In this document: one piece after another, positions 9,974 to 43,149 of the stretch | Layout of the letters: each line of letters starts with the position of its first letter | How positions within the stretch are numbered: position 1 is the first letter of the stretch | Assembly: GCF_036192275.1 (NCBI RefSeq) | Contig: NZ_CP108088.1 | Coordinates: 4,465,501-4,529,500, forward strand | Length of the DNA: 64,000 nucleotides | Direction: 5' to 3' | Source: Streptomyces sp. NBC_00250 | Lineage (GTDB): Bacteria; Actinomycetota; Actinomycetes; Streptomycetales; Streptomycetaceae | Made by a program: the position numbers and the translations under genes | The notes under the pieces: generated by a model | Databases searched by the model: none | Seen by the model: only the letters and a program-made list of their open reading frames with translations | What the model was told of the DNA's origin: nothing

Positions 9974-9979
9974 GTGCGT

Positions 9980-11897: not shown

Positions 11898-11988
11898 CTG
11901 GCAGCAGATCAGCCTCGGTGACCTGGAGACTCCTGTGCGTCGCAAGGCAGCCGTTCCGCCGCAGGGATCGAGGGCTTCGATGAGTGAC
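11868..11988. repeat. 31-bp direct repeat at the hsdM/hsdS junction (90-bp period)
   Basis: The 31 bp at 11868-11898 (end of hsdM plus start of hsdS) recur exactly at 11958-11988. The 90-bp offset is in frame, so the second copy provides an alternative internal start (ATG at 11980) followed by M-S-D-S-Y-A-L-R-R-L-G. It looks like a recombination scar from replacement of hsdS sequence. Confidence 0.9.
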
Positions 11989-13179: not shown

Positions 13180-13182
13180 GCC

Positions 13183-16100: not shown

Positions 16101-16260
16101 CAAGCGCACCCTCGCCCAGTCATGGGACAACGCTGAGGCCCGCAACCGCGGTGTCCGCCGTGGCACCGCCGCAGTCTTCCGCCGGTACATGTTGAAGCCG
16201 GTGGGAGAGCCCTACGGCTCCACCGTGGCCTACGTCGAAGCCCACTATCTCGTCGACTGA
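13183..16260 (+). CDS. hsdR: Type I restriction-modification endonuclease/translocase subunit
   Basis: The 1025-aa motor-nuclease starts at GTG, 3 bp after hsdS. The N-terminal nuclease has the E-V-K of a PD-(D/E)xK site (L-V-V-V-E-V-K-S). The SF2 translocase has Walker A H-H-Q-G-S-G-K-T, the box V-D-E-A-H-R and motif III M-T-G-T-P. The helical C-terminal domain is complete. Leu111 is encoded by TTA (13513-13515), the rare codon read by the developmentally controlled bldA tRNA in Streptomyces. hsdM and hsdS show no in-frame TTA, so restriction but not modification may lag in young mycelium. Confidence 0.95.
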   Translation: MTKGIREREFQNLMIQWSLPMGWGFTAGRSLPRETTQTVLAGQLRDAIVQLNPGVIDGFDVDAVVEEIIATVNAVDGGLVRANEQVLKLLRGHKEFRDADGVWHTLKVIDLEHPTANTLVVSDEVTITVPGKTPRRFDLVYWVNGLPLVVVEVKSPTAKSGWADAAREINDVYATEYPWFFTPNVFAIASDGLKLRFGAAGAPLNLWQPFRSTDDDENLSGQADVQRSVELLLNPATVLDMLENFVLFDTSGGGADKKYLPRYPQMEAAHLIHRRVLADGKKGLVWHHQGSGKTLLMVFAASLLLADTRTESPTIILLSDRTQLVRQTSGVFTSAMGNAYFHQPSTSKELRSLLADDVRGVISTTVHKFADAGKNLSTRRNIIVLVDEAHRTQSSEEESLAGQMRAALPHAKFFGMTGTPVRNLATNTFALFGEESDPNRVLHRYSVSRSLQDEATVPVMLDPHPVTFEMNDRALQAEFDQFADEFDLDDPDRETLSRKFGRLTSVFANPERIHTVCQDIVDHYLAGTYRNGLKAQVVAYNRELAVAYTDKINELLAGFEASQVLAEVGKHDRITAEVNIHVSDAKTEEAAMRPYRLSEVDEEDQKRRFLTPDDPLCFLVVTAKLMTGFDAPNEGVLYLDKPMKAHNLFQTITRPNRTWVSPAGFVKTTGVVVDYISLAEEVQRAVVDPTSEGSAGKGGGFVTDLTDLVAEFRTTFARIEDLLADVDGLDLTAHGYESVRCINGFLDANPDAAEVFSKNYRLLARLYPLINTDKRVAKYQDGFGLFGSAYTTLFKKSSDEERKERLGELGPMVLEIINAHVHSFSVAASQEEALVLDAQGITILKELLSLVRPKPDEDDSEDKRPPSAAEILDHIKAALEKGIEPGSAKYTALAERIRQLRDRIIQNAQDALEFLAEALRVARAIVNAEKHPDEAVVLDDDHVGVLSRIIHDHAPPGLTVTEQNLAEEIDQVVKRTLAQSWDNAEARNRGVRRGTAAVFRRYMLKPVGEPYGSTVAYVEAHYLVD

Positions 16261-16387: not shown

Positions 16388-18154
16388 CTACCAGTCTTCG
16401 GTGTCCCCGTATTTCCCAGGATGCCGCGCTCGATCCACAGCCTGTGCACACGCCTCGGCGAAGTCCGCCTCTACAGCCGCCTTGTCCGTGCCTCGCACCT
16501 GAGCCTCGACCTCCTGGCCCGTGCCGGGTCGTCGGGCCGTGCGCCAGGCCGAGGCGCGGTCGGTGTAGCGGTCGGTCTCGAAGTCCCAGGCCGGCACCGA
16601 CCACTGCTCCGGGACCCCGGTCGCCGCGCGTTCCCCGCCGGGGAGGAACAGGGCTCGGGCGTGGAAGACAACGGCCCGCTCCGGCACGCGGTCGCGGATA
16701 GCGCTCGGGCCGCCGGGGCCCTGGTGTTCCCAGCGCCAGCGGTCCCATTCTTCGACCTCGGCAGGGTGGTCGGGCCAGTCCTCGCTCCAGCGTGTGACGA
16801 CCTCGTCGGCGTGCTCGCGGTGGAGGAAGGGCACGCGTCGCTCGCCGAGGCGGGCCACGTGGACCATCAGCTCGGCGGGGACGGGGCTCTGGTCGGCCTC
16901 CGGCGCGGCGCTTCCCTCCGCCTGGTCCGTGCCCCACAGGAGGCCGCCGACCTTGGCGGCGGTGTCCTTGAGGACGCGGCTGGTCAGGTGCTGGTAGCGG
17001 CGGCGCATCCGGGCGGACTTGCCGGGTTCCCAGCCCATGATGGCGTCGACGACCGCGTCGGAGACGCCGAGGATGAGCAGGACAGTTGCTGCGGTGTGGC
17101 GGGCGTCATGGAGGCGGGCATCGCGGACGCCAGCGGCCTTCAGCAGCTCCTTCCACTTGTGGTAATCCGTGTTCGGGTTCAGGGGCTCGCCGGTGGGCGA
17201 AGTGAAGACGTACCCCTTCTCCGTCCACAGGTCACGGGCCCGGGCTCGCTCGCGTGCCTGCTCCTCCTTGTGCTGGCGCAGGAGCTGGAGGAGTTCATCG
17301 GGGGCACCGATGGGGCGCTGGCCGGCGCGGGACTTGGCGTTCTTCGTCTCACGGCGGGTGTTGATCTTCTGGGGGCAGTAGCCGGGTTTGCGTCCACAGC
17401 GTTCGCCGCAGCCGTGCTTGTAGCGGGGCCGCAGCCGGCCACGGCGTACGCGGACGACGCCGAGCTCGAAGTCGACGTCGTCCCACTGCATACCGAGGAC
17501 CTCGCCCTGGCGCAGGCCGAGGGCGAGCGCGATGACCCAACGGGCGGTGTTGCGGTGCTTGGCGGCCTCAGCGAGGAGCCGCTGGACCTCCTCGACCGTG
17601 TACGGCTCGACCTCCTCCTCTTCGACCTTGGGGGCCTTGGCGATGGAGGCCGGGTTCGCCGTGAGGTGCTTGCGGCGCACGGCCTCGTTCAGCGCCGTGC
17701 GAATCGTGCGGTGGGCCTGGTGGGCGGTGCCGGCGGCGCTGCCGTTGTCCTGCATCTTCTTGTAGAAGCGCTCCAGGTGCTCCGGGTCGAGCTTCTCCAG
17801 GCGGTGGGCGCCCAGGCCGGGGATGAGGTGGTGGTTCACCGCGACGCGGTAGCCGTCGATCGTGTTCTCCGAGACGTGCGCGGCGGCGATGTTCTCGACC
17901 CAGTGGGTGAGCCATGTCTTCACGGTCCACGACTGGCCGGCCTTGCGGACGGCGCCCTTGTCGCGCTGCCGTTCCAGCTCGCGTACGAGCTTGGTGACCT
18001 CGGCTCGGGTCTTGCGGCCGACGTGGCGACGGTCCGGGGTGCCGTCGTCCTTGACGCCGACGGTGACGCGGCCGTGCCAGCGCCCGTCTTTGCCGAGGTA
18101 GATGGACGAGGCGCCGTTGGGCTGGCGGGGCTTCGGTGCGGAGGCTCGCGTCAT
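16388..18154 (-). CDS. int: Tyrosine site-specific integrase with C-terminal extension
   Basis: The 588-aa recombinase resembles integrases of actinobacterial elements such as pSAM2. An arm-binding N-terminus and SAM-like core-binding domain (about 75-165) precede the catalytic domain. The catalytic domain shows R215 (G-L-R-Q-G-E), H349-x-x-R352 (L-H-D-A-R-H-T), W375 and nucleophile Y387 (R-R-Y-Q-H-L). A Cys-containing insert (C249/C253/C260) interrupts the catalytic fold. About 180 residues after Y387 form a tail not usual for the family. The ATG at 18154 overlaps the excisionase stop (ATGA), so the pair is coupled. It should recombine the tRNA-Ser attachment cores. Confidence 0.93.
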   Translation of the reverse strand: MTRASAPKPRQPNGASSIYLGKDGRWHGRVTVGVKDDGTPDRRHVGRKTRAEVTKLVRELERQRDKGAVRKAGQSWTVKTWLTHWVENIAAAHVSENTIDGYRVAVNHHLIPGLGAHRLEKLDPEHLERFYKKMQDNGSAAGTAHQAHRTIRTALNEAVRRKHLTANPASIAKAPKVEEEEVEPYTVEEVQRLLAEAAKHRNTARWVIALALGLRQGEVLGMQWDDVDFELGVVRVRRGRLRPRYKHGCGERCGRKPGYCPQKINTRRETKNAKSRAGQRPIGAPDELLQLLRQHKEEQARERARARDLWTEKGYVFTSPTGEPLNPNTDYHKWKELLKAAGVRDARLHDARHTAATVLLILGVSDAVVDAIMGWEPGKSARMRRRYQHLTSRVLKDTAAKVGGLLWGTDQAEGSAAPEADQSPVPAELMVHVARLGERRVPFLHREHADEVVTRWSEDWPDHPAEVEEWDRWRWEHQGPGGPSAIRDRVPERAVVFHARALFLPGGERAATGVPEQWSVPAWDFETDRYTDRASAWRTARRPGTGQEVEAQVRGTDKAAVEADFAEACAQAVDRARHPGKYGDTEDW

Positions 18155-22612: not shown

Positions 22613-23344
22613 GTGACGCACGACCCCCACCACGCTGGCAACCCCGGCGTACTGCCGTCGCTGACGAAGTCGCCTACGCTGAAGGAGCGTTTGCGGAACG
22701 CGTTCGGACGGCCTGCCCCTGGCGGAGCCAGTAGTACCCCGAGTCCGACTCAAGGCCGGTCTTCGGGGATCGCCGCCCCGGGGGTGGCGGAGACGGCCCA
22801 GCGCCAGGGGGCGCCGGACCGGGAGGTCGGGACCGAGGGCGGCCCCGACCCAGAGACGCTCCACGCCGTCCAGCAGCAGATCCTCCGCCCCACACATGCC
22901 ACCGAGCCGACGGCCGGCGAGCGAGCGGTGCAGAGCGTCGAGCCGGCAATCCGCCGTTTCACCGGCACCAAGCGGACCGTGCGCGTCGGCCCGCTGCGCT
23001 TCACCGGCGACGAGCACGCCGGCCTCCAGGAGGCCGCCGCCGAGCACGGCTACAAGGGGGAATCCGGCTTCGCCGCCGACATCGTCCTCGCATTCGTATC
23101 CGGTCGGTTCACCGCGAACCTGCCGCTGTCCGAGGACCGCCGCCGTACCCACATGTTCCGCGCCCAGGTGCTGCGCGAGCTCAACCGGATCGGCGTCAAC
23201 GTCAACCAGATCGCCCGCGCCCTCAACAGCGACCTCACCCCGCCCGACATCCGACACCGTCTCGACGAGCTCCACCGCCTGCTGGAGCTGATCGCCGATG
23301 CCCTGCGCGAACCGACCGAATCCGGGAAGGACCTGGCCGCGTGA
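22613..23344 (+). CDS. mobC: MobC-like relaxosome protein
   Basis: The 243-aa protein has a disordered N-terminus and a MobC-like C-terminal half (from about residue 120). It contains the ribbon-helix-helix-like R-V-G-P-L-R-F-T and the signature L-N-R-I-G-V-N-V-N-Q-I-A-R-A-L-N. MobC proteins bind oriT and help the relaxase nick. The start GTG at 22613 follows GGAG. The stop overlaps the relaxase GTG (GTGA), so the two are coupled. Confidence 0.87.
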   Translation: MTHDPHHAGNPGVLPSLTKSPTLKERLRNAFGRPAPGGASSTPSPTQGRSSGIAAPGVAETAQRQGAPDREVGTEGGPDPETLHAVQQQILRPTHATEPTAGERAVQSVEPAIRRFTGTKRTVRVGPLRFTGDEHAGLQEAAAEHGYKGESGFAADIVLAFVSGRFTANLPLSEDRRRTHMFRAQVLRELNRIGVNVNQIARALNSDLTPPDIRHRLDELHRLLELIADALREPTESGKDLAA

Positions 23345-25041
23345 TCGCCGCCATCAAACCGGCCGGGTCCAACACCCGTGGCCTGCTCGCCTACCTCTAC
23401 GGCCCCGGCCGCCACGACGAGCACAGCGACCCGCACATCGTCGCCGGCTTCGCCATGCTCGGCATGCCCGACCCCGGCCGCGACCCCGATGCCACCCTCA
23501 CCCAGCTCGCCCGCCACCTCGATGAGCCCGTCCGTCTTCGGAACAGCGAGTTCGGCAAGAAGGTCAGCGACCACGTCTGGCACTGCCCCGTCCGCACCGC
23601 CCACGAAGACCGCCACCTCTCCGACACCGAGTGGGCCGACATCGCCCAGCGCATCGTCGAAGCCGCCGGCATCGCCCCGCCCGGAGACGACCTGGCCTGC
23701 CGGTGGATCGCCGTACGCCACGCGGACGACCACATCCACATCCTCGCCACGACCGTCCGAGAGGACGGTCGCCGCCCCAAACTCCACGACAGCGGCATCC
23801 GCGTCGGCGACGCCTGCCGCGAGATCGAGAAGGACTACGGTCTGCGTCGCCTGAAGAAGGGCGACCGCACTGGCACCCGCGCCCCCACCCAGGCCGAGAT
23901 GCACAAGGCGCAGCGCCTCGGCTGGGAGCAGACGAGCCGCGAATGGCTCCAGGACTGCATCCGCGCCGCCATCCCTCACGCGCGCACCGCCGAGGAACTC
24001 CTCGGCTACCTCGAAGCTGACGGCATCGCGATCAAGGCCCGCCGCGGACCTTCCGGAGACCTCCTCGGCTACGCCGCAGGCCGTCCCGGCGACCTCAACA
24101 AGGAAGGCGAACAGATCTTCCACCCGGGCGGGAAGATCGCTCCCGACCTCACGCTTCCCAAGCTCCAGGCCCGCCTGGAAGCCGGCCAACCCGTGGAACA
24201 CCCCACCGCCCGGCGCAACCGACCGACCACCGCTTGGCACCAGGCCACCGAAGCCCTCGACAGCTTCCGCACCGACCTTGCCGACGACACGCACGCCCAG
24301 GCCCACATCACCGCCCTCGGTGAACTCCTCGAAGCCACATCCCAGAAAGCGCCCATCCACCTCCGCGCCGAACTCCAGGCCGCATCCAAGGCATTCGCCC
24401 GCGCCCAGCGCTCCCAGATCCGGGCAGAAGACCGCGCTGCCCACGCCATCCGGAACGCGGCCCGCGACATCGTCCACACCGCCACCGGCCCCGACGGCAG
24501 CGCCCTTGCCGCCCTCATCGCCGCCCTCCTGTGGGCCGGGATCATCGCCAACCGCTGGCACGAGGCCAAGGGCCACGCCCACCAGGCCGACGCCGCCCGC
24601 CAAGCCCTCCACCACCTACAGGCAGCCGCCGACCAGGCCCTCACCCCCACGCTCGTCGTACTCGAACAGCGTCAACCGAAGCAGGAAACCCGCCGTACTC
24701 TCGCCCACGACGTCCGCGCCGCCGTCCCCGACCAGGCCGACCGCATCCTCACCGACCCCAGCTGGCCCGCCCTCGCCGCCCTCCTGGCCGACGCGGAGGC
24801 CCAAGGCCACCAACCCCACCAGCTCCTGAAGGAGGCCGCAGCCCAGCGCGAACTGGGTACAGCCCGCCAGCCGGCCCGCGTCCTGATCACCCGACTCCAG
24901 CACACCAGCCGCAACCCAAGCCCCAACCTTCGGGCTGAAGCCGCCCGCCTCCGCACCACGGCGGCGGTGACCGGCCAGCAGGCCACCGCCGCACAGCTGC
25001 CAGCAGTCCCCGGAGTCCGGCCCAACCGCCCGCGACGCTGA
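23341..25041 (+). CDS. mobA: Relaxase / mobilization nuclease
   Basis: The 566-aa protein has an N-terminal MOB relaxase domain. Metal-binding histidines lie in R-H-A-D-D-H-I-H-I (H127, H131, H133), and the catalytic tyrosine is probably in the first 25 residues (L-L-A-Y-L-Y). A long helical C-terminal half (Ala/Arg/His-rich) may bind DNA or the recipient coupling protein; a hydrophobic stretch near 385-400 is seen. It would nick the element's oriT for transfer through a helper system. The oriT was not identified. Confidence 0.9.
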   Translation: MIAAIKPAGSNTRGLLAYLYGPGRHDEHSDPHIVAGFAMLGMPDPGRDPDATLTQLARHLDEPVRLRNSEFGKKVSDHVWHCPVRTAHEDRHLSDTEWADIAQRIVEAAGIAPPGDDLACRWIAVRHADDHIHILATTVREDGRRPKLHDSGIRVGDACREIEKDYGLRRLKKGDRTGTRAPTQAEMHKAQRLGWEQTSREWLQDCIRAAIPHARTAEELLGYLEADGIAIKARRGPSGDLLGYAAGRPGDLNKEGEQIFHPGGKIAPDLTLPKLQARLEAGQPVEHPTARRNRPTTAWHQATEALDSFRTDLADDTHAQAHITALGELLEATSQKAPIHLRAELQAASKAFARAQRSQIRAEDRAAHAIRNAARDIVHTATGPDGSALAALIAALLWAGIIANRWHEAKGHAHQADAARQALHHLQAAADQALTPTLVVLEQRQPKQETRRTLAHDVRAAVPDQADRILTDPSWPALAALLADAEAQGHQPHQLLKEAAAQRELGTARQPARVLITRLQHTSRNPSPNLRAEAARLRTTAAVTGQQATAAQLPAVPGVRPNRPRR

Positions 25042-26438: not shown

Positions 26439-27731
26439 CTACGCCTCCGGTGTTCCGTCCGCCGAGATGCGGCGGAAGCCTAGGTACGGGAAGAGGGATT
26501 CCGGCAGGACGATCGAGCCGTCCTGCTGCTGGCACTGCTCGAGGAGCGCGGCCAGGGTGCGGCCGATGGGCAGGCCGGAGCCGTTCAGGGTGGCGACGAG
26601 CTTGGGCTTGCCGTCCTCGCCGCGGGTGCGAATGTTGGCGCGGCGGGCTTGGAACGTGCCGAAGTTGGAGACCGAGGAGATCTCCCGGTAGGTGCTCTGG
26701 CTCGGGATCCAGACCTCGATGTCGTACGTGAGCTGGGCGGAGAAGCCCGTGTCACCGGCGGCCAGCTTGACGACGCGGTACGCGAGGCCGAGCTCCTTCA
26801 GGCACGCCTCGGCGTGGTCGACCATCGTCTCCAGCGTGGCGTCCGCGTCCGCCGGGTCGACCATCTGGACGATCTCGACCTTGGCGAACTGGTGCTGGCG
26901 GATCAGGCCCCGGGTGTCACGACCGTACGAGCCTGCCTCGGACCGGAAGCACGGCGTGTGCGCAGTCAGTGCCAGCGGCAGGTCGGCCGGCGGGATGATC
27001 TCGTCGGCGTAGAGGTTGGTCAGCGGTACCTCGGCCGTCGGGATGAGGAACAGCTCACGGTCGGCTACGCCGGTCTTGAACAGGTCCTCCTCGAACTTCG
27101 GCAACTGTCCGGTGCCGGTCATCGTCTTGCGGCTGACCAGGTACGGGACCGCGTGCTCGACGTACCCGTGCCGGCGGGTGTGGATGTCGAGGAAGAGCGT
27201 CGCCAGTGCGCGCTCCAGGGCAGCGCCCGCCCCGCGGGAGACGACGAACCGGGGGCCCGACAGTTTCGTCGCCCGGGCGAAGTCGAGGATGCCTGTGCTC
27301 TCGCCCAGGTCGACGTGGTCCTTCGGCTCGAAGGAGAAGGCCGGCGGGGTGCCGACGCGCCGGACCTCGACCGCGAACTCCTCGGAGTCGCCGTCGGGGG
27401 CCGCGTCGTCGGGCAGGTTCGGGATGGTGAGGAGCAGCTCGCGCAGCTCCTCCTGCACCTGCTCCTGCTCGGCGTCGATGTCCCGGATCTGGTCCTTCAG
27501 CTCGCGGGCGCGCTCCTTCATCTTGGAGATATCGCCGCCCTGCTTGGCCGCCTGTTGAACCTCGCTCGCCACCCGCTTGGCCTCCGTCCGCAGCTCGTCG
27601 GCTGAGCGGATGTTCTGGTTGCGCCGGGACTGGAGGTCTTCCAGCCGGGACAGGTCCAGGGAATAACCGCGACGAGCGAGCCGGCGAACAGCTTCGGCAC
27701 CCATTTCGATCAGGGCGCGGGCGTCATGCAT
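26439..27731 (-). CDS. serS: Seryl-tRNA synthetase, element-borne second copy
   Basis: The 430-aa class II synthetase is complete. It has an N-terminal long coiled-coil arm (about 30-105), motif 2 F-R-S-E-A-G-S-Y-G-R-D-T-R-G-L-I-R-Q-H-Q-F, and motif 3 ending L-P-I-G-R-T-L-A-A-L-L-E. The housekeeping serS of Streptomyces is normally elsewhere, not by dnaX, so this is probably an extra copy. Extra SerRS genes act as self-resistance (albomycin) or supply seryl-tRNA for biosynthesis (valanimycin VlmL). ATG at 27731 follows AAGGA. No T-box was found in its leader. Confidence 0.93.
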   Translation of the reverse strand: MHDARALIEMGAEAVRRLARRGYSLDLSRLEDLQSRRNQNIRSADELRTEAKRVASEVQQAAKQGGDISKMKERARELKDQIRDIDAEQEQVQEELRELLLTIPNLPDDAAPDGDSEEFAVEVRRVGTPPAFSFEPKDHVDLGESTGILDFARATKLSGPRFVVSRGAGAALERALATLFLDIHTRRHGYVEHAVPYLVSRKTMTGTGQLPKFEEDLFKTGVADRELFLIPTAEVPLTNLYADEIIPPADLPLALTAHTPCFRSEAGSYGRDTRGLIRQHQFAKVEIVQMVDPADADATLETMVDHAEACLKELGLAYRVVKLAAGDTGFSAQLTYDIEVWIPSQSTYREISSVSNFGTFQARRANIRTRGEDGKPKLVATLNGSGLPIGRTLAALLEQCQQQDGSIVLPESLFPYLGFRRISADGTPEA

Positions 27732-27929
27732 GAGGGGATCCTTTTTATCCAGCGAGTGGGATGGGGATTCCAGAGCGACGGTAGCAACAGCGACCCCTCG
27801 CGGATCCGGAATATCGCCGTGTGATGTCTACGGCGCAGCGCCACTGGGCTCACGTACTGTCCAGATCCCGCCAGCCTCGACCAGGGTCGGGATGGTGCCC
27901 GCCTGGTGCTTCGTGACAGGGTCGAGCCC

Positions 27930-28952
27930 ATGCGGATTTTGGTGATGGGCGGCACCTGGTTCCTCGGCCGCGCGATTGTTGACGAAGCTCTGCGACGGGG
28001 CTGGGAGGTGACAACCTTCAACCGCGGCCGTTCCGGTGCAGTAGAGGGCGCCGACACGGTCCGCGGTGACCGGACTGACCCCGATGACGTGAAGCGGCTG
28101 GCCAGCCAAGGGCCGTGGGATGCCGTCATCGACACCTCCAGCAGCGAGTTCTCGCCTCGTGATGTACTCCTCGCCACCGAGGCCCTGCGCCCGGTTGCCG
28201 CCCGGTGGGTGCACGTCTCCACGGTGTCCGTTTACCAGGGCTGGCCCCACCACCCGCTCACTGAGGATTCCCCGCTGCTGGAGTGCCCACCGGATGCCGA
28301 CGAGTCGTTCGGTCACACCGGCGCCGACGGCAGCCCGACGAAGTACGGATTCCAGAAAGCTGGCGGAGAGGCCGCGGTGAGGACCGCGTTCGGGGACGAT
28401 TCGGTGTTCGTACGGCCGGGGGTGATCCTGGGCCCCGGCGAGTACGTCGGCCGCCTCCCGTGGTGGCTCACCAGGGCCCATCGCGGCGGCCCGATCGTTG
28501 TCCCGGCGCCGGGCGAGCAGCGCATCCAGCCCGTCGACGTGCGCGACGTCGCCGTCTTCGCCGTCGATCAGGCCGCGGCCAGTACCCCCGGGCGGGCCTT
28601 CAACATCGCCCACCCCGAGGGCATCAGCTGGGCGGACTTCATCAGCGCATGCCTCGCGATCACGGGCGGCGTCGGCCATCCGGTGTGGACCGACGCTGCG
28701 ACCCTCACGGCGCACGACGTCAAGCAGTGGACAGAGCTTCCGCTGTGGCGTACCCATGCCGGCGTGTGGTCCGTCGACGCCTCCCGTGCCGCAGCAGCCG
28801 GGCTCCGGTGCCGTCCGCTCGCGGACACCATCGCCGACACCTGGGCGTGGATGCAGGCGGATGGACGACCGGTCGAGCACCCGAGGTGGTCCGAACACGG
28901 AGTGGCCCCGGACAAGGAGGCCCGGATCCTCACTGCCCTCGGGCAAAGGTAG
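27930..28952 (+). CDS. Extended short-chain dehydrogenase/epimerase
   Basis: The 340-aa NAD(P)-dependent enzyme has a Rossmann motif G-G-T-W-F-L-G at residues 7-13 and the catalytic Y139-x3-K143 pair (K-Y-G-F-Q-K). C-terminal substrate-binding elements follow. The ATG at 27930 begins the first beta strand; an in-frame GTG at 27906 is less likely. It is divergent from serS across a 198-bp shared promoter region. The substrate is unknown; NDP-sugar or reductase-like activity are both possible. Confidence 0.85.
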   Translation: MRILVMGGTWFLGRAIVDEALRRGWEVTTFNRGRSGAVEGADTVRGDRTDPDDVKRLASQGPWDAVIDTSSSEFSPRDVLLATEALRPVAARWVHVSTVSVYQGWPHHPLTEDSPLLECPPDADESFGHTGADGSPTKYGFQKAGGEAAVRTAFGDDSVFVRPGVILGPGEYVGRLPWWLTRAHRGGPIVVPAPGEQRIQPVDVRDVAVFAVDQAAASTPGRAFNIAHPEGISWADFISACLAITGGVGHPVWTDAATLTAHDVKQWTELPLWRTHAGVWSVDASRAAAAGLRCRPLADTIADTWAWMQADGRPVEHPRWSEHGVAPDKEARILTALGQR

Positions 28953-28968
28953 GAAGGGGCGGAGCGGG

Positions 28969-30291
28969 TCAGGAGTCGACGGCGAGCAGTCCCCGCCCAG
29001 TACCCAGCTGCCTCGGCGCTGAGCGGCGGCCGAACTCCTCGATCCGCTCGCCCAGCGTGACCGCCGCGCCCGCCCCCCTGAACGCGGGGGCGGTCAGCGC
29101 CCGCCTCAAGGTCCCGGTGCGCTCCAGCAGTCCCGCCACGCGTTGGTCTTCAGGAATCGCCCAGACCGTCTCCAGCGTCACGGCCGCCGCGTCCAGGTCG
29201 CCCCGCAGGAGCTGCGCGGCGGCGAGGTCGGCCGCGGCCTTCCCGCGCACCGACACCGACTGCCGAGCCGGCGGCCGGGACGAGACAAGGGCCAATGCCT
29301 GCTGTGCGGTGGTCTCGGCACCTACCCCGTCGCCGACGAGGAGGGCCGTCGTGCCGTTGGACATCAGCAGCCGCTCCTCGCTGAACGCGAACTCGCCGCC
29401 CACGCCGTCGTGCAGCTCGTCCCGCTCCCCTCGATCCTGCTGGGTCGATGCGACGAGCGCCCGTGTCGCCCGCTCGTGGTCTCCGAGGTGTCCGTGGGCG
29501 CGAGCCTCGATGGACAGCAGTCGACGACGCGCGGTGTCCCCCAATCCGGCATAGGCCAGCGCCGTCCGGGCCTGCCGTACCGCCTCGGACGGCCGCCCCG
29601 TGAAGTAGGCGCAGATCGCCAAGGAGCCGGTCGCGTACGCGCGCAGCGGATCGAACCGAGCCATCTCCCCGTACAGGGCTGCCGACCGAGCAAGGCGCGC
29701 CGAGTCGTCCAGGGAGCCGAGGTCGAACGCGGCGGTCGACAGCAGCGCGCACGCCTGCCCCGCCACGATCAGCAGGTCCTGTTGCTGGGCGGGCACCTGT
29801 GTCAGCCCCCGCTGGTGCTCCGCCTCCGTGCGAAGCACTCTGGCGCGCCGGAAGATGTCGAACGCGCTCACCGCCCCATACGAGCGGGCGAGGGCAAGAG
29901 CATCGTCGCGGAGCTGGTCGATGGTGGTGTCGGATACGGACTGCGCGGCGGCAGCACCGGCTTCATCTGCGGCGTCACGTGCGGTCATGGCGATGTCACT
30001 TTCGAGGTCGTACACAGCGGGAGCCCCCGACATGGTCGGGGACGACGCAGGTGGAGGACCGAAAAGGGCGACGGTCTCCACCTCGAACAGGTGCTCAAGC
30101 ACGCGGCATGTATCCGGTCCCGGCAGGGTTTTGATCCGGCCCGACGTCCACCGTCGGAACTGCGCTTCCGATACCGACAGGCCCGGTAAGCCGGCCTGCG
30201 ATGCCGCCCGTGCGAAGGCGGTGGCGAAGTCCCGGTACCGCCAGCGTCGTTGCTGGACTAACACCCGTAGCAGCGTGGCCGGATCTTGCAT
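28969..30291 (-). CDS. XRE/TPR-type regulator with TTA codon
   Basis: The 440-aa regulator has an N-terminal HTH (about residues 5-70, with F-R-R-W-T-S-G-R) and a long all-helical TPR-like C-terminus (150-430). ATG at 30291 has GGGAG upstream. Leu11 is a TTA codon (30259-30261), a feature of pathway-specific regulators whose synthesis depends on the bldA tRNA in Streptomyces. It is divergent from the small-ORF/radical-SAM operon and so probably controls it. The 235-bp divergent gap contains several ATGACAC-like copies. Confidence 0.87.
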   Translation of the reverse strand: MQDPATLLRVLVQQRRWRYRDFATAFARAASQAGLPGLSVSEAQFRRWTSGRIKTLPGPDTCRVLEHLFEVETVALFGPPPASSPTMSGAPAVYDLESDIAMTARDAADEAGAAAAQSVSDTTIDQLRDDALALARSYGAVSAFDIFRRARVLRTEAEHQRGLTQVPAQQQDLLIVAGQACALLSTAAFDLGSLDDSARLARSAALYGEMARFDPLRAYATGSLAICAYFTGRPSEAVRQARTALAYAGLGDTARRRLLSIEARAHGHLGDHERATRALVASTQQDRGERDELHDGVGGEFAFSEERLLMSNGTTALLVGDGVGAETTAQQALALVSSRPPARQSVSVRGKAAADLAAAQLLRGDLDAAAVTLETVWAIPEDQRVAGLLERTGTLRRALTAPAFRGAGAAVTLGERIEEFGRRSAPRQLGTGRGLLAVDS

Positions 30292-30526
30292 CGGTCGCTC
30301 CCTCAAAGTCAGGAGACGGACCACATCGCCCCGTCCCTATGCGTTGCCTACCGGCCAACAGGCTTGATCTGCAATGGAATCCGCGCACATGACATGCCGA
30401 TGCCACCTCCATGACACCCCACACACCCAAGTGGGCACCAGATGACACTCGCCGCGTCATGGCCGTGACACCCGCACTGGAGCGACTCTTACGCCACCCC
30501 AAAGAGACCAGCGAAGGGAACGGACC
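30292..30526. promoter_or_regulatory. Divergent control region with TGACAC copies
   Basis: TGACAY motifs recur (near 30396, 30410, 30443 and 30467), most preceded by CCA or GA. They sit between the XRE/TPR regulator and the small-ORF operon. No -10/-35 pair is assigned. Confidence 0.35.
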
Positions 30527-30742
30527 GTGAGCAGCCCCCGGCTTCCCCGCCGAACCCCCGGCGCGACCAACCCGCAGTACGAGGCAGCCGTAGCCCCGTA
30601 CGCGGAGTCGGACGCGGCCCCGTCGTTGGAGAGGCGCCGCTTGCCGCGGGCGGCGGAGGCATTCCGAACCGAGCACGGTGATCCCGCCACCTGGAGCTCC
30701 GCCCAGTTCGACGCCTTCCTCGGTCTCGGGGGTGCCCAGTGA
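30527..30742 (+). CDS. Small hypothetical protein, first in the operon
   Basis: This 71-aa protein begins with GTG after AAGGGAA. It is rich in Arg, Ala and Pro and has no Cys. The C-terminal part (D-P-A-T-W-S-S-A-Q-F-D-A-F-L-G-L-G-G) could form a short helix and a glycine-rich tail. The stop overlaps the next gene (GTGA). I do not recognise a family. It could be a peptide precursor, but no cleavage motif is evident. Confidence 0.6.
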   Translation: MSSPRLPRRTPGATNPQYEAAVAPYAESDAAPSLERRRLPRAAEAFRTEHGDPATWSSAQFDAFLGLGGAQ

Positions 30743-31005
30743 TCACGGCCAACGACGCGAATCTCTGGGTGGCGGACGACCGTGGCCACCAGCTCCTCGG
30801 CCGAGAGGTCGTCCAGCCCTCCAGCGGACGACGCGGAACCGTCGCCACCGTGCTGGTCTACACCTCGAAGACCACCGACAAGGTGGTCAAGAGGGTCGCG
30901 CACATGCGTCCGATGGACGACTCGGGTCGCGAGTGGACGGCGGATCCCGGATCGCTCCAGCCCCTGCTCCCGAGCGCCTCGAACGTGGCGGCGGACACTC
31001 GGTGA
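30739..31005 (+). CDS. Small hypothetical protein, second in the operon
   Basis: This 88-aa protein is translationally coupled to the previous ORF through GTGA. It is predicted mostly beta (V-A-T-V-L-V-Y-T-S-K) with a basic patch, and there are no Cys or membrane segments. The family is unrecognised. The next gene is 212 bp downstream, so a separate promoter may exist there. Confidence 0.6.
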   Translation: MITANDANLWVADDRGHQLLGREVVQPSSGRRGTVATVLVYTSKTTDKVVKRVAHMRPMDDSGREWTADPGSLQPLLPSASNVAADTR

Positions 31006-31217
31006 CCACCGTCCAGTCGGCACGGGGCAACGGCACCCGGAGCTGAGCAGACTTCCCGCCCGTTGCCGGTCAACCAGACGACCACGCGTGGGAAACGGCG
31101 CCCCTGGGCGCCGAGCAACAAACCGGTCGGAGTGCAGTCGGCTCTCCGACCGGCGGCCAGCAGAGCGGATCAGAGCTGCCCAACCCGGGCAGTCACCCTT
31201 CCATCAAGGAGATCGGC

Positions 31218-31577
31218 ATGCCGACACCCAGGAAAGAGAAGCAGAACCACCTGATCTACGCGGACGTCGTGGACTCCAAGTCCAAGGCGGGTGTGTGGAT
31301 GGGCGAGCGCGCCTCCTTCCGCGAGAAGCAGGGTCGCATCCTCGACGCGCTCAAGGAGCGCACCGACTGGGTCGAGCTGAACGACGCGATCATGGTCATC
31401 AGCACCGAGCCCGCCGGCCTCACGGTCATCGTGCCCAACCCGACGCTGCCCGGCGTCATCGTCCTCTCCGACGGCGGCAGCCCCGCGGCCTCGGCCCAGC
31501 TCCAGGCCGGCGCCGAGGAGCAGGTCCGCGCCGTGATGGCCGAGCTGGGCATCGCCGAAGAGGAAACGGCGGCCTGA
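31218..31577 (+). CDS. 119-aa unknown protein coupled to a radical SAM enzyme
   Basis: It has a strong ribosome site (AAGGAG) before ATG 31218. The sequence is mixed alpha/beta, Lys-rich at the N-terminus, with a hydrophobic core (A-I-M-V-I-S-T-E, then L-T-V-I-V-P-N-P-T-L-P-G-V-I-V-L) and an acidic Ala/Glu-rich C-terminus. It has no Cys. The stop is 4 bp from the radical SAM start. It may be the substrate or carrier peptide, or a partner of the maturase. No family is recognised. Confidence 0.75.
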   Translation: MPTPRKEKQNHLIYADVVDSKSKAGVWMGERASFREKQGRILDALKERTDWVELNDAIMVISTEPAGLTVIVPNPTLPGVIVLSDGGSPAASAQLQAGAEEQVRAVMAELGIAEEETAA

Positions 31578-31581
31578 CCCA

Positions 31582-32883
31582 GTGGCCGCTCCCCTGCAGC
31601 TGTGGGGGAAGTACTTCCAGTACGACCGGGCCGGGGAGGCTGTACTCCTCGACCCGGTCACCCTGGAAAGTGTGCTTCTCGACTCCGGCGAGGTCGCTGA
31701 CCTCGCCGGGGTCTCCCCGACCGCGACCCACGAAGCCCTCGCCGGGCTCGGCTTCACCCAGGACGGCCCCGCCGCCGACCGCCGTGAAGCACTCCACAAC
31801 CGCCTCAACGCCCTCGGTTTCGACCCGACACCGCAACGGATCAGCGGGCTCCGGGTGGTCCTCACCGACCGCTGCAACATGGCCTGTACGTACTGCTTCG
31901 TCGACACCAACAGCGGCAAGCCCGACATGACCGAGGAGGAGCTCGCCACCGGCCTGGAGTTCCTGTTCGAGCAGAACGCCGGCCGGGAGGAGGTGTCCAT
32001 CCAGTGGTTCGGCGGCGAGCCGACCATCCGCTTCGACCTCATGAAGTACGGCGACGAACTCGCCGACACCCTCGCCGCCCGCCACGGCGTCGCACGTGTC
32101 CGCCGCACCGTCGTCACCAACGGCGCCCGCCTCACGGACGAAGCCCTCGACCACTTCGTGCAGCGCGAGTACGGCGTCGGCATCTCCATCGACGGCCCGC
32201 CCGGAATCAACTCCGCCAACCGGCTCCTCCTGGGTGGCCAGCCCGCCGACGACCGGATCCGCCGCAACGTCGGCCGCCTGGTCGCGGCCAAGGGCCTGCA
32301 CGTCGGATGCAACCTCACCCCCACGGCATCGAACATCGGGCGTCTGGCCGAGACCGTGCGGTGGATCATCGACGACCTCGGCCTGAAGTTCATCTACGTC
32401 AACACCCCCATCCCCACGGGGGGTGAGTGGCGAGTCAACGGCGCCGATCTGGCCCGCGAGCTGTACGAGGCCCGCCTGACCGCGCTCGGCAGGGGCGGGA
32501 TGCTCTTCTCCGTCCTCGACCGCGCGTTTCAGGCTCTCGACACCCGCCGGCCGATGCTGTTCGACCACATGCAGGGCGACCGCAGCCTGAACGCCGCCCT
32601 GCTGCCCGGCAACCGGGTCAGCGTCTGCGACATCAACTTCACCGAGCCCTCGTTCCTCCACACCGTCGACGAGCTCCGCCAAAACCCCGGCCTGCTGGCC
32701 GCTGCGGCCAAGAAAGTCGCCCCGATCCCCGCCTGCGGCGACTGCCCGGCCCTGGCCATCTGCGGCGGACCGTCCCGAAACGAGCAGGCCCTCATCGGCG
32801 GCGACACCCCGGACCCGCAGATGTGCGCCTTCTACACCAGCACCGTGGCCATCGCGGTCTGGGACAACACGGGGGTGCAATGA
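31582..32883 (+). CDS. Radical SAM/SPASM maturase
   Basis: The 433-aa enzyme has an N-terminal 85-residue extension, possibly a substrate-recognition domain. Next comes the radical SAM cluster motif C98-N-M-A-C102-T-Y-C105 in L-T-D-R-C. The G-G-E-P strand binds SAM (W-F-G-G-E-P). The C-terminal SPASM region has C-D-I-N and C-G-D-C-x5-C-G-G-x-C spaced cysteines for auxiliary [4Fe-4S] clusters. Such enzymes modify peptides post-translationally. Start GTG 31582; the stop overlaps the next radical SAM ATG (ATGA). Confidence 0.92.
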   Translation: MAAPLQLWGKYFQYDRAGEAVLLDPVTLESVLLDSGEVADLAGVSPTATHEALAGLGFTQDGPAADRREALHNRLNALGFDPTPQRISGLRVVLTDRCNMACTYCFVDTNSGKPDMTEEELATGLEFLFEQNAGREEVSIQWFGGEPTIRFDLMKYGDELADTLAARHGVARVRRTVVTNGARLTDEALDHFVQREYGVGISIDGPPGINSANRLLLGGQPADDRIRRNVGRLVAAKGLHVGCNLTPTASNIGRLAETVRWIIDDLGLKFIYVNTPIPTGGEWRVNGADLARELYEARLTALGRGGMLFSVLDRAFQALDTRRPMLFDHMQGDRSLNAALLPGNRVSVCDINFTEPSFLHTVDELRQNPGLLAAAAKKVAPIPACGDCPALAICGGPSRNEQALIGGDTPDPQMCAFYTSTVAIAVWDNTGVQ

Positions 32884-33758
32884 GCACGCCCGCCCGCACA
32901 GCGCTGGTCTCGACGGCCGGCCACTGCAAGGTCGCCTGCGGTTTCTGCTTCCGCGCGGACCGCGCCCACGGCTTCCTCAGCATCGACACCTACACCCGGG
33001 CCCTGTCCCGGCTGAAGGAGACCGGGGTGGAGGGCGTCTGCCTGACCGGAGGCGAGCCGACCCATCACCCCCAGCTCCGGCAGCTCGTCCGCTTGGCCCA
33101 CCAGTTCGGCATGGCGGTGTCCATGGTGACCTCGGCCCGCACCGAGGCCGAGGTCACCGCCCTCGCGGAGGTCGAGCACCTTCTGACCAACGTCACCGTC
33201 TCGGCCGATTCCGAGGGCGCGATGGCCCTTGGTCGGACGACCCGGACCGTGGCCTCCGCCGTTGCGACGCTGCTGGCCGTGGACGTTCCCGCGAAGGTCC
33301 TCCACTTGACCTATTTGGACGTGGCGGAGGAGGAGGCAGCGCAGATCGCCGGCCTCGTCGCCGGGACAGGCATTGAGGTCCAGCTCAGCCCCGTACTCCT
33401 GAACGAACAGGGCTTGATCAGGGCCGGCGGATCGCTCCAGGACTCTGTGAAGCTCAGAGAGGCTGACACGGCGACCCTTGCCGGGCGCTTCCGTCTGTCC
33501 AACGCGTACCGGTCCTACCTCGATGATCTGCGTCGGATGCAGCTGTCCGACGACGAGGGCCATCCCTGCCGGTCAGCGACCCTCTACATGTCCGCCGAAG
33601 GCGAGATACGACGTTGCCCCTACGGCGTGGACGGGGTCAGCGTCCAGGCCCCGCGTGCCGAGATCAGGGGTTTCCTCGAAGCGCCGTCGAAGGACCGTGT
33701 CGGACCCGACTGCGCCGCCATCTGCCGCCCCGCGTCGCACGCCTGCGCGGCGGCCTGA
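32880..33758 (+). CDS. Radical SAM protein, second in the operon
   Basis: The 292-aa protein has C16-K-V-A-C20-G-F-C23, the CxxxCxxC cluster motif, followed by a T-G-G-E-P-T SAM-binding strand. The C-terminus has several cysteines (H-P-C-R-S, R-R-C-P-Y-G, D-C-A-A-I-C, H-A-C) consistent with an auxiliary cluster. It is coupled by ATGA to the first radical SAM gene. It resembles MoaA/SPASM-like enzymes; the reaction is unknown. Confidence 0.88.
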   Translation: MSTPARTALVSTAGHCKVACGFCFRADRAHGFLSIDTYTRALSRLKETGVEGVCLTGGEPTHHPQLRQLVRLAHQFGMAVSMVTSARTEAEVTALAEVEHLLTNVTVSADSEGAMALGRTTRTVASAVATLLAVDVPAKVLHLTYLDVAEEEAAQIAGLVAGTGIEVQLSPVLLNEQGLIRAGGSLQDSVKLREADTATLAGRFRLSNAYRSYLDDLRRMQLSDDEGHPCRSATLYMSAEGEIRRCPYGVDGVSVQAPRAEIRGFLEAPSKDRVGPDCAAICRPASHACAAA

Positions 33759-33773
33759 GACCAGGGAGCCATC

Positions 33774-34556
33774 GTGCACGCACCGGTCTCTGTCACCGAC
33801 CCGCACAACTTCACCGCCTGCTGGAGGCAGCCGCCGAACTTTCGCCTGCACGTCCCGTTCGACTACCTCTTCATACCCGCCATCGACATACTCGACCACA
33901 TCCGCCAGGACGAAGAGGTGCGGTTCACCATCCTCGGCGAGGAGGACTGGCAGGTCCGCATGGACCGCACTGCCGCCTTCCGGACGGCCCCGGTCGAGGA
34001 GATCAGCACCTGGCCCTTCCGCCTGGTGCACTTCAACCTCTCCCGGTTCTACGGCGAACTCCTGGACGGCTTCCAGGACGAGGTCGTGATCCCCTGGCGC
34101 ACGTACCTCGCCTCCCAGGGATTCACCTGGCAGCGGTGCGCGCCTATCCTCTTCCTGTCCTCTCAGGGGGCCACGTCGACGTACCACAACGACAACTCGC
34201 ACGGCCTCGTCTGGCAGGTCCACGGCACCAAGACCTTCCACAGCTACCACAACCCCGACAAGCACCTGTCGGCCGAAGCCGCCGTCCTCGGTGAGACCAC
34301 AGCCGAGGAACCGCCGGCCCACGACGAGACGGACCGGCAGTCCGTGACCATGCACCCCGGTGACCAGCTGTGGAGCCACGCCCTGACCCCGCACTGGGTC
34401 ACCACGGAGTCTCCGCTCGCCCTCAGCGTCACGTTGTCCCACGGCGGCCTGTGCCACCAGGGCCGCTACGCCGACCGCGAGCTCGCCCTCCGGTCCCACT
34501 GGGACAAGAACCCGGCCGAAGCATGGGCCCTCGACCTGGGCCACACCCGCTACTGA
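33774..34556 (+). CDS. JmjC/cupin-like Fe(II)/2-oxoglutarate oxygenase
   Basis: This 260-aa protein ends the operon. The cupin core has H138-N-D140 and a distal H207 (T-P-H-W) that would bind iron. K153, 13 residues after the aspartate, occupies the position of the 2-oxoglutarate lysine in FIH-type enzymes. These proteins hydroxylate protein or tRNA residues, but the substrate is not known here. Start GTG 33774 with AGGGAG upstream, 16 bp from the second radical SAM gene. Confidence 0.85.
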   Translation: MHAPVSVTDPHNFTACWRQPPNFRLHVPFDYLFIPAIDILDHIRQDEEVRFTILGEEDWQVRMDRTAAFRTAPVEEISTWPFRLVHFNLSRFYGELLDGFQDEVVIPWRTYLASQGFTWQRCAPILFLSSQGATSTYHNDNSHGLVWQVHGTKTFHSYHNPDKHLSAEAAVLGETTAEEPPAHDETDRQSVTMHPGDQLWSHALTPHWVTTESPLALSVTLSHGGLCHQGRYADRELALRSHWDKNPAEAWALDLGHTRY

Positions 34557-34563
34557 TCACCCC

Positions 34564-34609
34564 GTGCTGCTGCCCCCCACCGCCAGTCGGCGGTGGGGGG
34601 CAGCAGCAC
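34564..34609. terminator. Bidirectional terminator between the JmjC gene and aspS
   Basis: A 19-bp stem (GTGCTGCTGCCCCCCACCG with its complement) lies between the convergent genes. Confidence 0.85.
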
Positions 34610-34621
34610 GTACGCACTCAA

Positions 34622-35938
34622 TCAGGGAGTCAGGCGGTTCGGGCCGCGGAAGAGGAAGGCCGCCTCGCGGATGGAGTCCAGACCGAGCATGACCATGAGG
34701 ATCCGTCCGAGGCCGGCGCCGAGGCCGCCGTGGGGCGGGCAGCCGAACCGGAAGATGTTCAGGTAGTCCTGCATCGGCTCGGTGTTCATGCCCTTCTCCT
34801 CCGCCTGCTTCAGCAGGACGTCGGAGCGGTGCTCGCGCTGGGCGCCGGTGGTGACCTCCAGGCCCTTCCACAGCAGGTCGAAGCTGAGCGTCAGGTCCGA
34901 CCGGTCCGCCGGGCGCATGTGGTAGAAGGGCCGGATGCTCGCCGGGTAGTGCGTGATGAACGCGAACTCGTGCCCGGTCTGCTCCTTCATGTGCGCGGCG
35001 ATCCGACGCTCACCGTCCGGGTCCAGGTCCTCCTTCACCCCCTCCGGGTCCCAGCCGCCAGCCCGCAGGACCTCCTGAGCCTCGGCCATCGTGATCCGCG
35101 GGAACGGCGTCTCCGGCACCGCCACCTCAACCCCGAAGACCTCCCGGATCCGCTCCCCGTGGATCTCGGCGACCTTAGCGATGGCGTGCGCCAGCATCCG
35201 CTCCTCGAAGACCATCACGTCCTCGACGTCGTCGATCCACGACAGCTCCACGTCCACGCCGGTGAATTCGGTCGCGTGCCGCGAGGTGTACGACGGCTCG
35301 GCCCGGAAGACCGGCCCGATCTCGAAGACCCGGTCGATGCCGGCCGCCACCGCCATCTGCTTGTAGAACTGCGGCGACTGGGCCAGATAGGCCGACCGGT
35401 CGAAGTACCCGAGCTTGAACACCTCCGCCCCGGACTCCGAGGCGGTCCCCATCAGCTTCGGGGTGTGCATCTCCGTGCAGCCGTGCTCCATGGCGTACTC
35501 GCGCAGTCCCTCTTCCAAGGTCGTCTGCACGGTGAACACGAGCTGCGCGGTCTCGCGCTTGCGGACGTCGAGGAACCGCCAGTCGAGCCGGTGCTCGGGC
35601 CCGGTCTGCTCGTCGATCGGCAGCGGCGTCTCCGCCAGGTTCAGCACCTCGACCGACTCGGGGACGAGCTCCAGACCGCCGAGCTTGACCTGGGCCGCGT
35701 CCACGACGCGGCCGGTGATCCGGACGGCGGACTCCGGGGTGAGGGACTCGAGGACAGCCTCCAGCGGGCCGCCGTCGCGCTTGTGGGTCACCTGGACCAT
35801 GCCAGCGTGGTCGCGCAGGATCACGAACTGCATCTTCCGCTGCAGCCGGAGTGCGTTTACCCAGCCGGACACGGAGACGGTCTGGTCGAGGTGGCCACGT
35901 AGGTCAGAGGTCAGAACGCGGCTCGTAGTGTGGATCAT
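34622..35938 (-). CDS. aspS: Archaeal-type aspartyl-tRNA synthetase, second copy
   Basis: The 438-aa class II enzyme has an N-terminal OB-fold anticodon domain (V-S-G-W-V-N) and motif 2 F-R-A-E-P-S-Y-T-S-R-H-A-T-E-F. It lacks the GAD insertion of bacterial AspRS, so it is the short archaeal/eukaryotic type (non-discriminating Asp/Asn in many bacteria). In motif 3 the sequence is A-G-L-G-R, where A-G-L-E-R is usual, and the C-terminus reads F-L-F-R-G-P instead of the usual F-P-R-D, both unusual. The ATG at 35938 has GGAGGG upstream and a T-box leader. Resistance or tRNA supply roles are inferred. Confidence 0.93.
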   Translation of the reverse strand: MIHTTSRVLTSDLRGHLDQTVSVSGWVNALRLQRKMQFVILRDHAGMVQVTHKRDGGPLEAVLESLTPESAVRITGRVVDAAQVKLGGLELVPESVEVLNLAETPLPIDEQTGPEHRLDWRFLDVRKRETAQLVFTVQTTLEEGLREYAMEHGCTEMHTPKLMGTASESGAEVFKLGYFDRSAYLAQSPQFYKQMAVAAGIDRVFEIGPVFRAEPSYTSRHATEFTGVDVELSWIDDVEDVMVFEERMLAHAIAKVAEIHGERIREVFGVEVAVPETPFPRITMAEAQEVLRAGGWDPEGVKEDLDPDGERRIAAHMKEQTGHEFAFITHYPASIRPFYHMRPADRSDLTLSFDLLWKGLEVTTGAQREHRSDVLLKQAEEKGMNTEPMQDYLNIFRFGCPPHGGLGAGLGRILMVMLGLDSIREAAFLFRGPNRLTP

Positions 35939-36175
35939 CGCAGCCCTCCAGGGGGCGTCGTCATGATCCCTTGGGAGCGTGGGCGAGAAGGGTACTCGCG
36001 GTGCCACCACGCCTTTGCCACCGCCAGACAGCGGCGGCCTCATTCAGCCCGATGACGGCGGCAAACCGGCGGGGCATTGGGCCATAGGGCCGTTCCTCCC
36101 CGCGCTCAGGAGGGTCTTCACCTCGGGCGCGAGTCCGCCTTCCCAGCTACCGGCGGCTCTCTCTGCTCGCGTGAT
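35939..36175 (-). promoter_or_regulatory. T-box riboswitch leader of aspS
   Basis: On the minus strand the leader contains the T-box core GGTGGCACCGCG (36008-35997), followed by the expected GCGAG...CTCGCCC pairing. The 5' portion has AGAGAGAG and a CCGCC/GGCGG hairpin with a GCTG loop (36167-36135), as in Stem I. UGGC in the T-box would pair with the 3' GCCA of tRNA-Asp (discriminator G). A GCCC/GGGC helix near the start codon could sequester the ribosome site, as in translational actinobacterial T-boxes. The specifier triplet is not certain; a GAC at 36116-36114 is a candidate. Confidence 0.85.
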
Positions 36176-42684: not shown

Positions 42685-42778
42685 CGCCCCCGTCCGGCCC
42701 GGTCCGGACAAGGCCACCGCGAACACTCCGTCGCAGGTCAGGACGCCTACGACCCTCGCCGGACCCCCGTACGAACAT

Positions 42779-42834
42779 TTGGAAAGCGTGTTGGGGGCAA
42801 CCCCTCACGAGTTCGAATCTCGTATCCTCCGCCA
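42779..42834 (+). repeat. attR core (56-bp copy of tRNA-Ser 3' half)
   Basis: Identical to 9861-9916. It contains only the anticodon-loop-to-CCA half, so it is not a functional tRNA. Confidence 0.95.
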
Positions 42835-42853
42835 TTGCTCTCACCGGGCAATT

Positions 42854-42893
42854 CGTTGAAGGGCCCCACCGTTCGCGGTGGGGCCCTTCGACG
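42854..42893 (+). terminator. Second copy of the tRNA-Ser terminator
   Basis: The CGTTGAAGGGCCCCACCG stem with TTCG loop is nearly the same as 9936-9973. The flanks around the copies are similar but not identical, so the element and host carry related, separate versions. Confidence 0.8.
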
Positions 42894-43149
42894 TTGGTGG
42901 TCGTGGTGCGCCGGGATCCGAAGCCGTCCGGGATTCACAGCCGGCTCACGGCCTGCGACGATCCCTCGCGCGCACGACCGCTCTCCACCGCGGTGCCCCT
43001 CGGGCCCGCCCTCAATGCCGTTTCTCCCTCAACTCGTCTCCGGCAGAGCCGTAGGATCGGCGAGGCAGCTGTCGCCGCGAAGAGATCGCCGGAAGGCGTG
43101 CGCGCCGCGCCGGCGGTCGACTTCGCTGCTGATGCCGGGGAGGGGCCCA
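42894..43149. other. Upstream region of the kinase-FtsK gene
   Basis: The coding frame of the next gene is open here, but it lacks family similarity, and the ribosome site is GGGGAGGGG at 43137-43145. No other gene is supported. Confidence 0.4.

Follow-up and report, generated by a model that had tools for sequence, protein, structure and literature searches.

The window analysed here, a 64,000-nucleotide stretch of Streptomyces sp. NBC_00250 (NZ_CP108088.1, positions 4,465,501 to 4,529,500), carries a block of genes centred on a four-gene operon on the forward strand, faced by a convergent gene for an archaeal-type aspartyl-tRNA synthetase (AspRS). The operon opens with p119 (31218..31577), which from alignments and an AF2 model we infer to be the precursor of a ribosomally synthesized and post-translationally modified peptide (RiPP). 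It continues with rS1 (31582..32883), a radical SAM/SPASM protein with an N-terminal domain resembling a RiPP recognition element (RRE) and the putative precursor maturase, and with rS2 (32880..33758), a second radical SAM protein (PF04055, scanned on a longer frame), and it closes with a JmjC/cupin-8-like oxygenase of the Fe(II)/2-oxoglutarate type (33774..34556). The synthetase gene, AspRS2 (34622..35938, reverse strand), differs from solved archaeal AspRSs in its motif 3 and is a candidate self-resistance gene; homologue lengths place its start at 35938, not 36043. An initial annotation, made from the DNA letters alone, had described these genes and their neighbours as a biosynthetic cluster on a mobile element, and every gene that it named proved to be present and open at the place given. 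The complete archaeal-type AspRS scores 468 bits against NF003483 (cut-off 353) and 377 against TIGR00458 (cut-off 368), and the supposed FIH-like oxygenase is the JmjC/cupin-8-like gene, whose HxD and distal His are kept in 37 aligned proteins.

At the limits used, Pfam and NCBIfam give no match for p119 or for the two small open reading frames (ORFs) upstream of it. The p119 protein combines an N-terminal motif, A15-D-x-V-D19-S20-x-x-K23-x-G25-V-W27, with a folded C-terminal domain at about residues 34-110; its AF2 model has a mean pLDDT of 77, with residues 7-20 below 50 and 34-110 folded at high confidence, and in the 55 sequences outside the window's own sub-group S20, K23, G25, W27 and F28 are invariant. 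In the model of rS1 a short strand (5-7) and strands at 11-16, 19-23 and 30-33 are followed by helices at 35-41, 48-55 and 67-78, and structural alignment to this model begins at residue 9 for 5wgg and at residue 7 for 8vpo. An RRE is defined, in the available text of PMC12710340, as three strands followed by three helices. As modelled, rS1 thus has the RRE-SAM-SPASM architecture of a peptide maturase, with the RRE present at the level of fold and few alignment rows covering that domain.

Among the best 25 of 59 NCBIfam families rS1 lies below every cut-off, rS2 does so in all the families shown, and the JmjC-like Pfam score is 22.1 against a cut-off of 27.4. The initial annotation was right about the radical SAM pair and about the SPASM cysteines of rS1; conserved C-terminal cysteines are found in rS2 too, and not in one enzyme only. 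Since prokaryotic viperin models match the radical SAM pair at 46.6 and 48.6 bits and restriction genes lie on the same element, viperin-like anti-phage defence was considered, but the matches span only the shared SAM core, the NCBIfam viperin scores of 46 and 42 bits fall far below the cut-off of 180, PADLOC matches neither p119 nor the JmjC-like protein, and rS1 aligns nearly end to end with a peptide maturase. We regard such a role as highly improbable and have rejected it.

The order p119, two radical SAM genes, JmjC and AspRS recurs across dozens of genomes, and the arrangement therefore exceeds chance. Scanning genomes with rS1 brought up 123 relatives; 77 loci were retained, and the first 37 of these (L018-L054) form the near family. 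Matches to p119 were found in 15/394 genomes of the family (two are weak, at E about 6e-4, leaving 13 credible), in 23/392 of the genus and in 1/286 of the class, the last being the window's own genome. Our pooled set comprised 95 loci (the window, L018-L054, L128-L163, L193-L210 and L241-L243, without short or duplicate fetches), 69 of them with the p119 motif; the other 26 are two cut or truncated clusters (L051, L054) and 24 loci picked for their AspRS (L128-L147, L160-L163). Merging identical p119 DNA left 52 distinct loci, with aspartate at position 19 of p119 in 46 (Asp19 loci) and glycine in six (Gly19 loci). The rS1 gene follows p119 in all 52, and rS2 is present in 50, being missing in L149 and cut off by the contig end in L242/L243; JmjC lies within 10 kb of p119 at 45 of the 46 Asp19 loci (the remaining one at a contig end) and at two of the six Gly19 loci.

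When the genes of the window were mapped on these loci, the four-gene operon and the convergent AspRS stayed constant amid changing surroundings. The single co-oriented block of the initial annotation holds for p119, rS1, rS2 and JmjC; the two small ORFs are confined to one sub-group. These ORFs, of 71 and 88 amino acids (30527..30742 and 30739..31005, both forward), share this restriction to L018-L021, L206 and L208 with close relatives of the regulator and with an NAD-dependent epimerase of the short-chain dehydrogenase/reductase type (27906..28952, forward; PF01370, no NCBIfam match above cut-off). The regulator (28969..30324, reverse) had been called an XRE/TPR protein with TTA codons. The TTA codons are there, at codons 22 and 46, and the protein is TPR-like and of the NsdA family (NF053720, 101.7 bits, cut-off 75); no XRE domain, and indeed no Pfam domain at all, was found within E 0.001. 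At other loci NsdA-like genes are at most 26-30% identical to it. We also note a gene for a damage-control phosphatase (ARMT1-like) that lies repeatedly near the cluster (L038, L040, L049, L151).

An AspRS gene lies within 10 kb at 44 of the 46 distinct Asp19 loci, and the two misses end at contig borders 3.0 and 1.3 kb downstream. At 42 of the 44 it belongs to the family of AspRS2 (in two pieces in L049); at the other two (L038/L155 and L040/L154) it belongs to another family, about 38% identical, which scores 526 bits against NF003483 (cut-off 353), falls below the TIGR00458 cut-off and is found elsewhere without p119 (L160-L163). That two different AspRS families stand beside Asp19 clusters suggests that the link arose more than once. 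A bacterial-type AspRS was kept in 54/54 genomes tested, cluster-bearing or not, so the cluster AspRS is an extra copy. A second synthetase linked to the cluster, with the housekeeping copy retained, is the pattern expected of a self-resistance synthetase. The linkage and the extra AspRS support the earlier suggestion that these genes form a conserved cluster making a modified peptide, with a synthetase that probably protects the producer.

Besides AspRS2 and a bacterial-type AspRS, the host has one further PF00152 gene, which encodes an asparagine synthetase A (436 bits, cut-off 368), and no asparaginyl-tRNA synthetase was seen among the three; in a host apparently without one, a substitute AspRS would need to charge both tRNA-Asp and tRNA-Asn, which fits the match of AspRS2 to a non-discriminating family. 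Its active-site signature is altered in a consistent way: of 72 AspRS2 rows (the window and lone copies included), 67 have Gly, four Ser and one Ala at the motif 3 position that is Glu in solved archaeal AspRSs, and in every row FLFRGP stands in place of the PRD of the solved enzymes. In eight rows of the other AspRS family the Glu is kept.

Such an altered motif 3 could also be expected if AspRS2 were a biosynthetic enzyme, adenylating aspartate or supplying Asp-tRNA for the product, much as VlmL reportedly supplies seryl-tRNA in valanimycin biosynthesis, and distant Glycomyces clusters do hold an AspRS-like protein that gives a match to the catalytic domain only. We consider this unlikely. 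AspRS2 has its anticodon-binding domain, its scores are those of a complete non-discriminating AspRS, it is retained where the biosynthetic genes are gone, and two different AspRS families occupy the same role. No enzyme that uses aminoacyl-tRNA was recognised in the core, and the initial annotation's other option, that charged tRNAs are consumed in the biosynthesis, accordingly loses ground.

We therefore favour, with a probability of roughly 0.6, a RiPP-type pathway to an AspRS inhibitor in which the extra archaeal-type AspRS serves as self-resistance. In outline, p119 would be the precursor, its flexible N-terminal motif around D19-S20, K23 and W27 the part that is modified and its folded C-terminal domain the part held by the enzymes; rS1, rS2 and the JmjC-like oxygenase would modify it, and host proteases would then free the product. 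The product would inhibit the cell's ordinary AspRS, and AspRS2, with its changed active-site signature, would keep the producer translating.

Several observations weigh against this proposal. The low confidence of the p119 N-terminus in the model permits a peptide core and does not prove one, and the core has no recognised peptidase or exporter of its own (an amino-acid permease, c6, occurs at some loci, and an ABC transporter, named from sequence without a domain scan, in L148). The 46 Asp19 loci are related by descent, so that the linkage counts are not independent events; and since JmjC is near p119 at two of six Gly19 loci and rS2 is missing from L149, the gene set is not universal. The change in motif 3 may signal altered function instead of resistance, and lone copies share it. 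Moreover, a window-type AspRS occurs in 68/394 family genomes, of which eight have a credible p119 and 60 have none, and at 16 of 20 AspRS2 places lacking p119 no relic of the core is found at E 1e-5. The other four hold JmjC fragments (L129, L130), a truncated cluster (L132) and a decayed cluster (L147), in the last of which AspRS itself is interrupted by stops.

Thus, the refutation set out in the initial annotation, a failure of the genes to stay together or synthetases that travel alone, is answered in part: the genes are conserved together, and AspRS2 also occurs without p119. In L129 and L130 AspRS is open beside the JmjC fragments. Once 12 same-strain rows and eight rows of the other AspRS family were omitted, 60 AspRS2 proteins remained for a tree, and in it the lone copies are scattered among the cluster copies, with seven changes, at least six of them forced by supported branches. 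Because the two relics and this scatter fit it, we read lone AspRS2 as immunity without production.

Lone copies also keep company with other synthetases. In L140 (G365) AspRS2 occurs with an extra seryl-tRNA synthetase (SerRS), an asparaginase-like gene and a relative of glutamyl-tRNA synthetase (GluRS), and in L136 (G005) with GluRS; such accessory regions are possible stores of resistant synthetases. From here it might be argued that the product of the operon, be it a cofactor, a signal or something else, leaves AspRS alone and that the synthetases are general resistance cargo, a view to which the spare synthetases beside lone AspRS2 in L136 and L140 and the sub-cut-off NCBIfam scores of the radical SAM enzymes lend themselves. 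The fixed position of AspRS and its 44/46 linkage speak against this, as does the exchange of the synthetase for a glycyl-tRNA synthetase (GlyRS) in two clusters with another p119 type, and we think it improbable.

That exchange leads us to ask whether the precursor itself names the target. In the window's sub-group of p119 (51 sequences, short fragments included) position 19 is D in 50, the single G being a fragment. Outside it the 55 sequences have G in 29, D in 14, A in eight, H in two and Q and K in one each, and on a tree built from p119 residues from 34 on at least 15 changes at position 19 are needed across the 102 sequences left after five fragments (P0048-P0051 and P0202) were dropped; 55 of the 99 inner branches of this tree are open. 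The A19 and G19 forms are mixed within one supported clade, where P0150 (A) and P0154 (G) share 89% identity. Position 19 as a uniquely hypervariable site was rejected, positions 17, 21 and 22 being more variable among 59 representatives, so that a code stands on the synthetase match and not on variability.

The synthetase match is as follows. No AspRS lies within 10 kb at any of the six distinct Gly19 loci, and a fused alpha-beta GlyRS accompanies two of them, L148 (G272) and S. pseudovenezuelae L048/L194, with its start 3.5 kb from p119 in the first and about 12 kb in the second; it is found at none of the 46 Asp19 loci. With 1429 bits in NCBIfam (cut-off 1244), the fused enzyme of L148 counts as a full GlyRS, and an ordinary GlyRS was present in 12/12 genomes tested, both fused-GlyRS strains included. 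An extra GlyRS at two of six Gly19 loci and AspRS at none suggests that residue 19 sets the target.

We tentatively propose a one-residue target code, in which residue 19 of p119 would decide which synthetase the product inhibits, and the cluster would hold an immunity synthetase to match that residue. The mature peptide would start at residue 19, followed by the invariant Ser20, and its free N-terminal residue would act as an aminoacyl mimic. An Asp form would pair with AspRS and a Gly form with GlyRS; for Ala, His, Gln and Lys the cognate synthetase is predicted in each case. Loss of residue 19 might expose Ser20 and lead to a hit on SerRS, which would explain SerRS near some Asp19 clusters. 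By analogy, this would accord with chemistry in which the amino acid of the warhead decides the synthetase (PMC7916415, in the text available). The code is the more doubtful in that it draws on two precursor types and leaves four Gly19 cases unexplained: at L149, L150, L193 and L195 no GlyRS occurs in about 5-10 kb each way, and the whole genomes of L149 and L150 lack a fused GlyRS.

The surroundings of these relatives are varied. L148, a richer Gly19 relative, holds YcaO, TfuA, P450, two PhyH, AKR, a BTAD-type regulator and the fused GlyRS at 1521-16747, and in L193 (G402, 10081-17479), L150 and L195 an unclassified protein of about 630 amino acids and a gene resembling nonribosomal peptide synthetases (NRPS) adjoin p119 (Pfam was run on L193 only). 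The Glycomyces loci L055-L057 encode a 61-aa peptide with no likeness to p119, a distant rS1 relative, an HExxH protein, a second radical SAM protein, an MFS protein, the AspRS-like protein (a match to the catalytic domain without one to the anticodon domain) and P450 genes. L055 and L057 also have a fused GlyRS adjoining the cluster; in L056 it is more than 60 kb off on the same contig.

The second synthetase of the initial annotation, SerRS, finds little support as an equal partner of AspRS. The window's SerRS (26439..27731, reverse) is complete (TIGR00414, 455 bits, cut-off 302) and is an additional copy, a second host SerRS lying in the chromosome at G000:C1:4603015. An extra SerRS was counted in 12/31 p119-positive and 4/28 p119-negative genomes (G365, with its lone AspRS2, was excluded, and G022 was counted though a single, window-type SerRS was found). 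Within 20 kb of the cluster a SerRS occurs in just five of the 31 p119-positive genomes (G000, G490, G702, G429 and G682, where the gene has a stop), and it adjoins the lone AspRS2 in G365. The cluster-side copies are of two kinds, the window type and one about 40% identical to it, and among the pooled loci the window type is beside the cluster only in the window and in S. purpureus (L018). SerRS as a core gene was rejected: the window type is found away from the cluster in three genomes (G647, G532, G132) and on another contig in a fourth (G022), and G092, which is p119-negative, carries it too. These data are suggestive of a loose companion with a link much weaker than that of AspRS.

The whole block sits on an integrative and mobilizable element of about 33 kb at tRNA-Ser(GGA) (9829..9916, forward; ARAGORN). 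The 3' end of the tRNA gene is duplicated as a 67-nt repeat (94% identical) and its terminator as a 63-nt repeat (89%), 32.9 kb apart, giving left (9854..9983; direct repeats D2/D3) and right (42772..42902) attachment (att) repeats. With a tyrosine-type (phage integrase family) integrase (16388..18154, reverse; PF00589, scanned on a longer frame to 18757), a MobC-like protein and MobA/VirD2-type relaxase (22613..25041, forward; PF05713, PF03432) and a same-species genome, G401, with no p119 match, these repeats bear out the element-borne location first proposed. A complete conjugation set was not seen on the element, though some of its genes are unclassified and a transfer gene could have escaped. 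In 2-kb steps G+C is 62-74% within the element and 72-76% on its left side, in a host genome of 9.27 Mb.

Cargo outside the cluster includes type I restriction-modification genes hsdM, S and R (10134..16260, forward; Pfam for hsdM and hsdR, with hsdS at 11890-13179 a partial match below cut-off). At 39214-39951 and 41054-42604 the element encodes an Mrr-type nuclease and a protein with a weak likeness to PADLOC HEC-07 (47.5 bits). Adjoining the right att repeat, a single long frame (42835-45876) fuses a Ser/Thr kinase domain with FtsK alpha, motor and gamma domains.

This cluster was not found in the open-licence literature searched, most subscription papers lying outside it. To our knowledge natural products directed at AspRS are few, and a Streptomyces RiPP family with built-in AspRS immunity, if our proposal is true, would be a new source of them, sometimes on mobile elements. 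If residue 19 does set the target, the family would represent a genetically readable natural system for retargeting synthetase inhibitors by single-residue swaps, and the target of any unknown member could be read off from the synthetase in its cluster.

Among known systems, the biphenomycin cluster, also found in Streptomyces, makes a RiPP with a radical SAM enzyme and a JmjC hydroxylase, much as is proposed here; it differs in its B12 radical SAM enzyme, MNIO and TldD-type peptidase, and the word "tRNA" is absent from the available text (PMC12707348). The modelled three-domain architecture of rS1 is that of RRE-SAM-SPASM maturases such as 5wgg and the streptide enzyme SuiB, but SuiB aligns to the model only from residue 79 or 83. 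Chain 5wgg is presumably CteB. Streptide is said to have a K-x-x-x-W spacing, as the name of TIGR04080 also implies, and p119 has an invariant K-x-x-x-W. Against TIGR04080, the KxxxW maturase family, rS2 scores 31.7 bits (cut-off 500), and the family is absent from the best 25 for rS1, the last of which scores 42.6 bits. Streptide contains a Lys-Trp link, according to the portion of PMC8326336 available. In contrast to streptide, p119 is far longer and has a folded C-terminal domain.

Two synthetase inhibitors offer the closer comparison in target. Microcin C reportedly involves a short peptide and nucleotidyl transfer, and its immunity genes are said not to be a spare AspRS; albomycin producers, for their part, reportedly use a spare SerRS. 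Unlike microcin C, the core described here has no matched ThiF/MccB-like gene, none being found among genes 26439-36043 by Pfam and NCBIfam scans, with more distant genes scanned in part. What the two would share is a RiPP whose processed form inhibits AspRS, for which microcin C is the Trojan-horse precedent in the accessible part of PMC7136475. Albomycin, as far as the available text of PMC7916415 goes, is a siderophore-nucleoside compound, its siderophore made by an NRPS, and in this it differs from the product proposed here; it is a Streptomyces aminoacyl-adenylate mimic of SerRS, and the same text reports that its core with Ser or Asp inhibited SerRS or AspRS.

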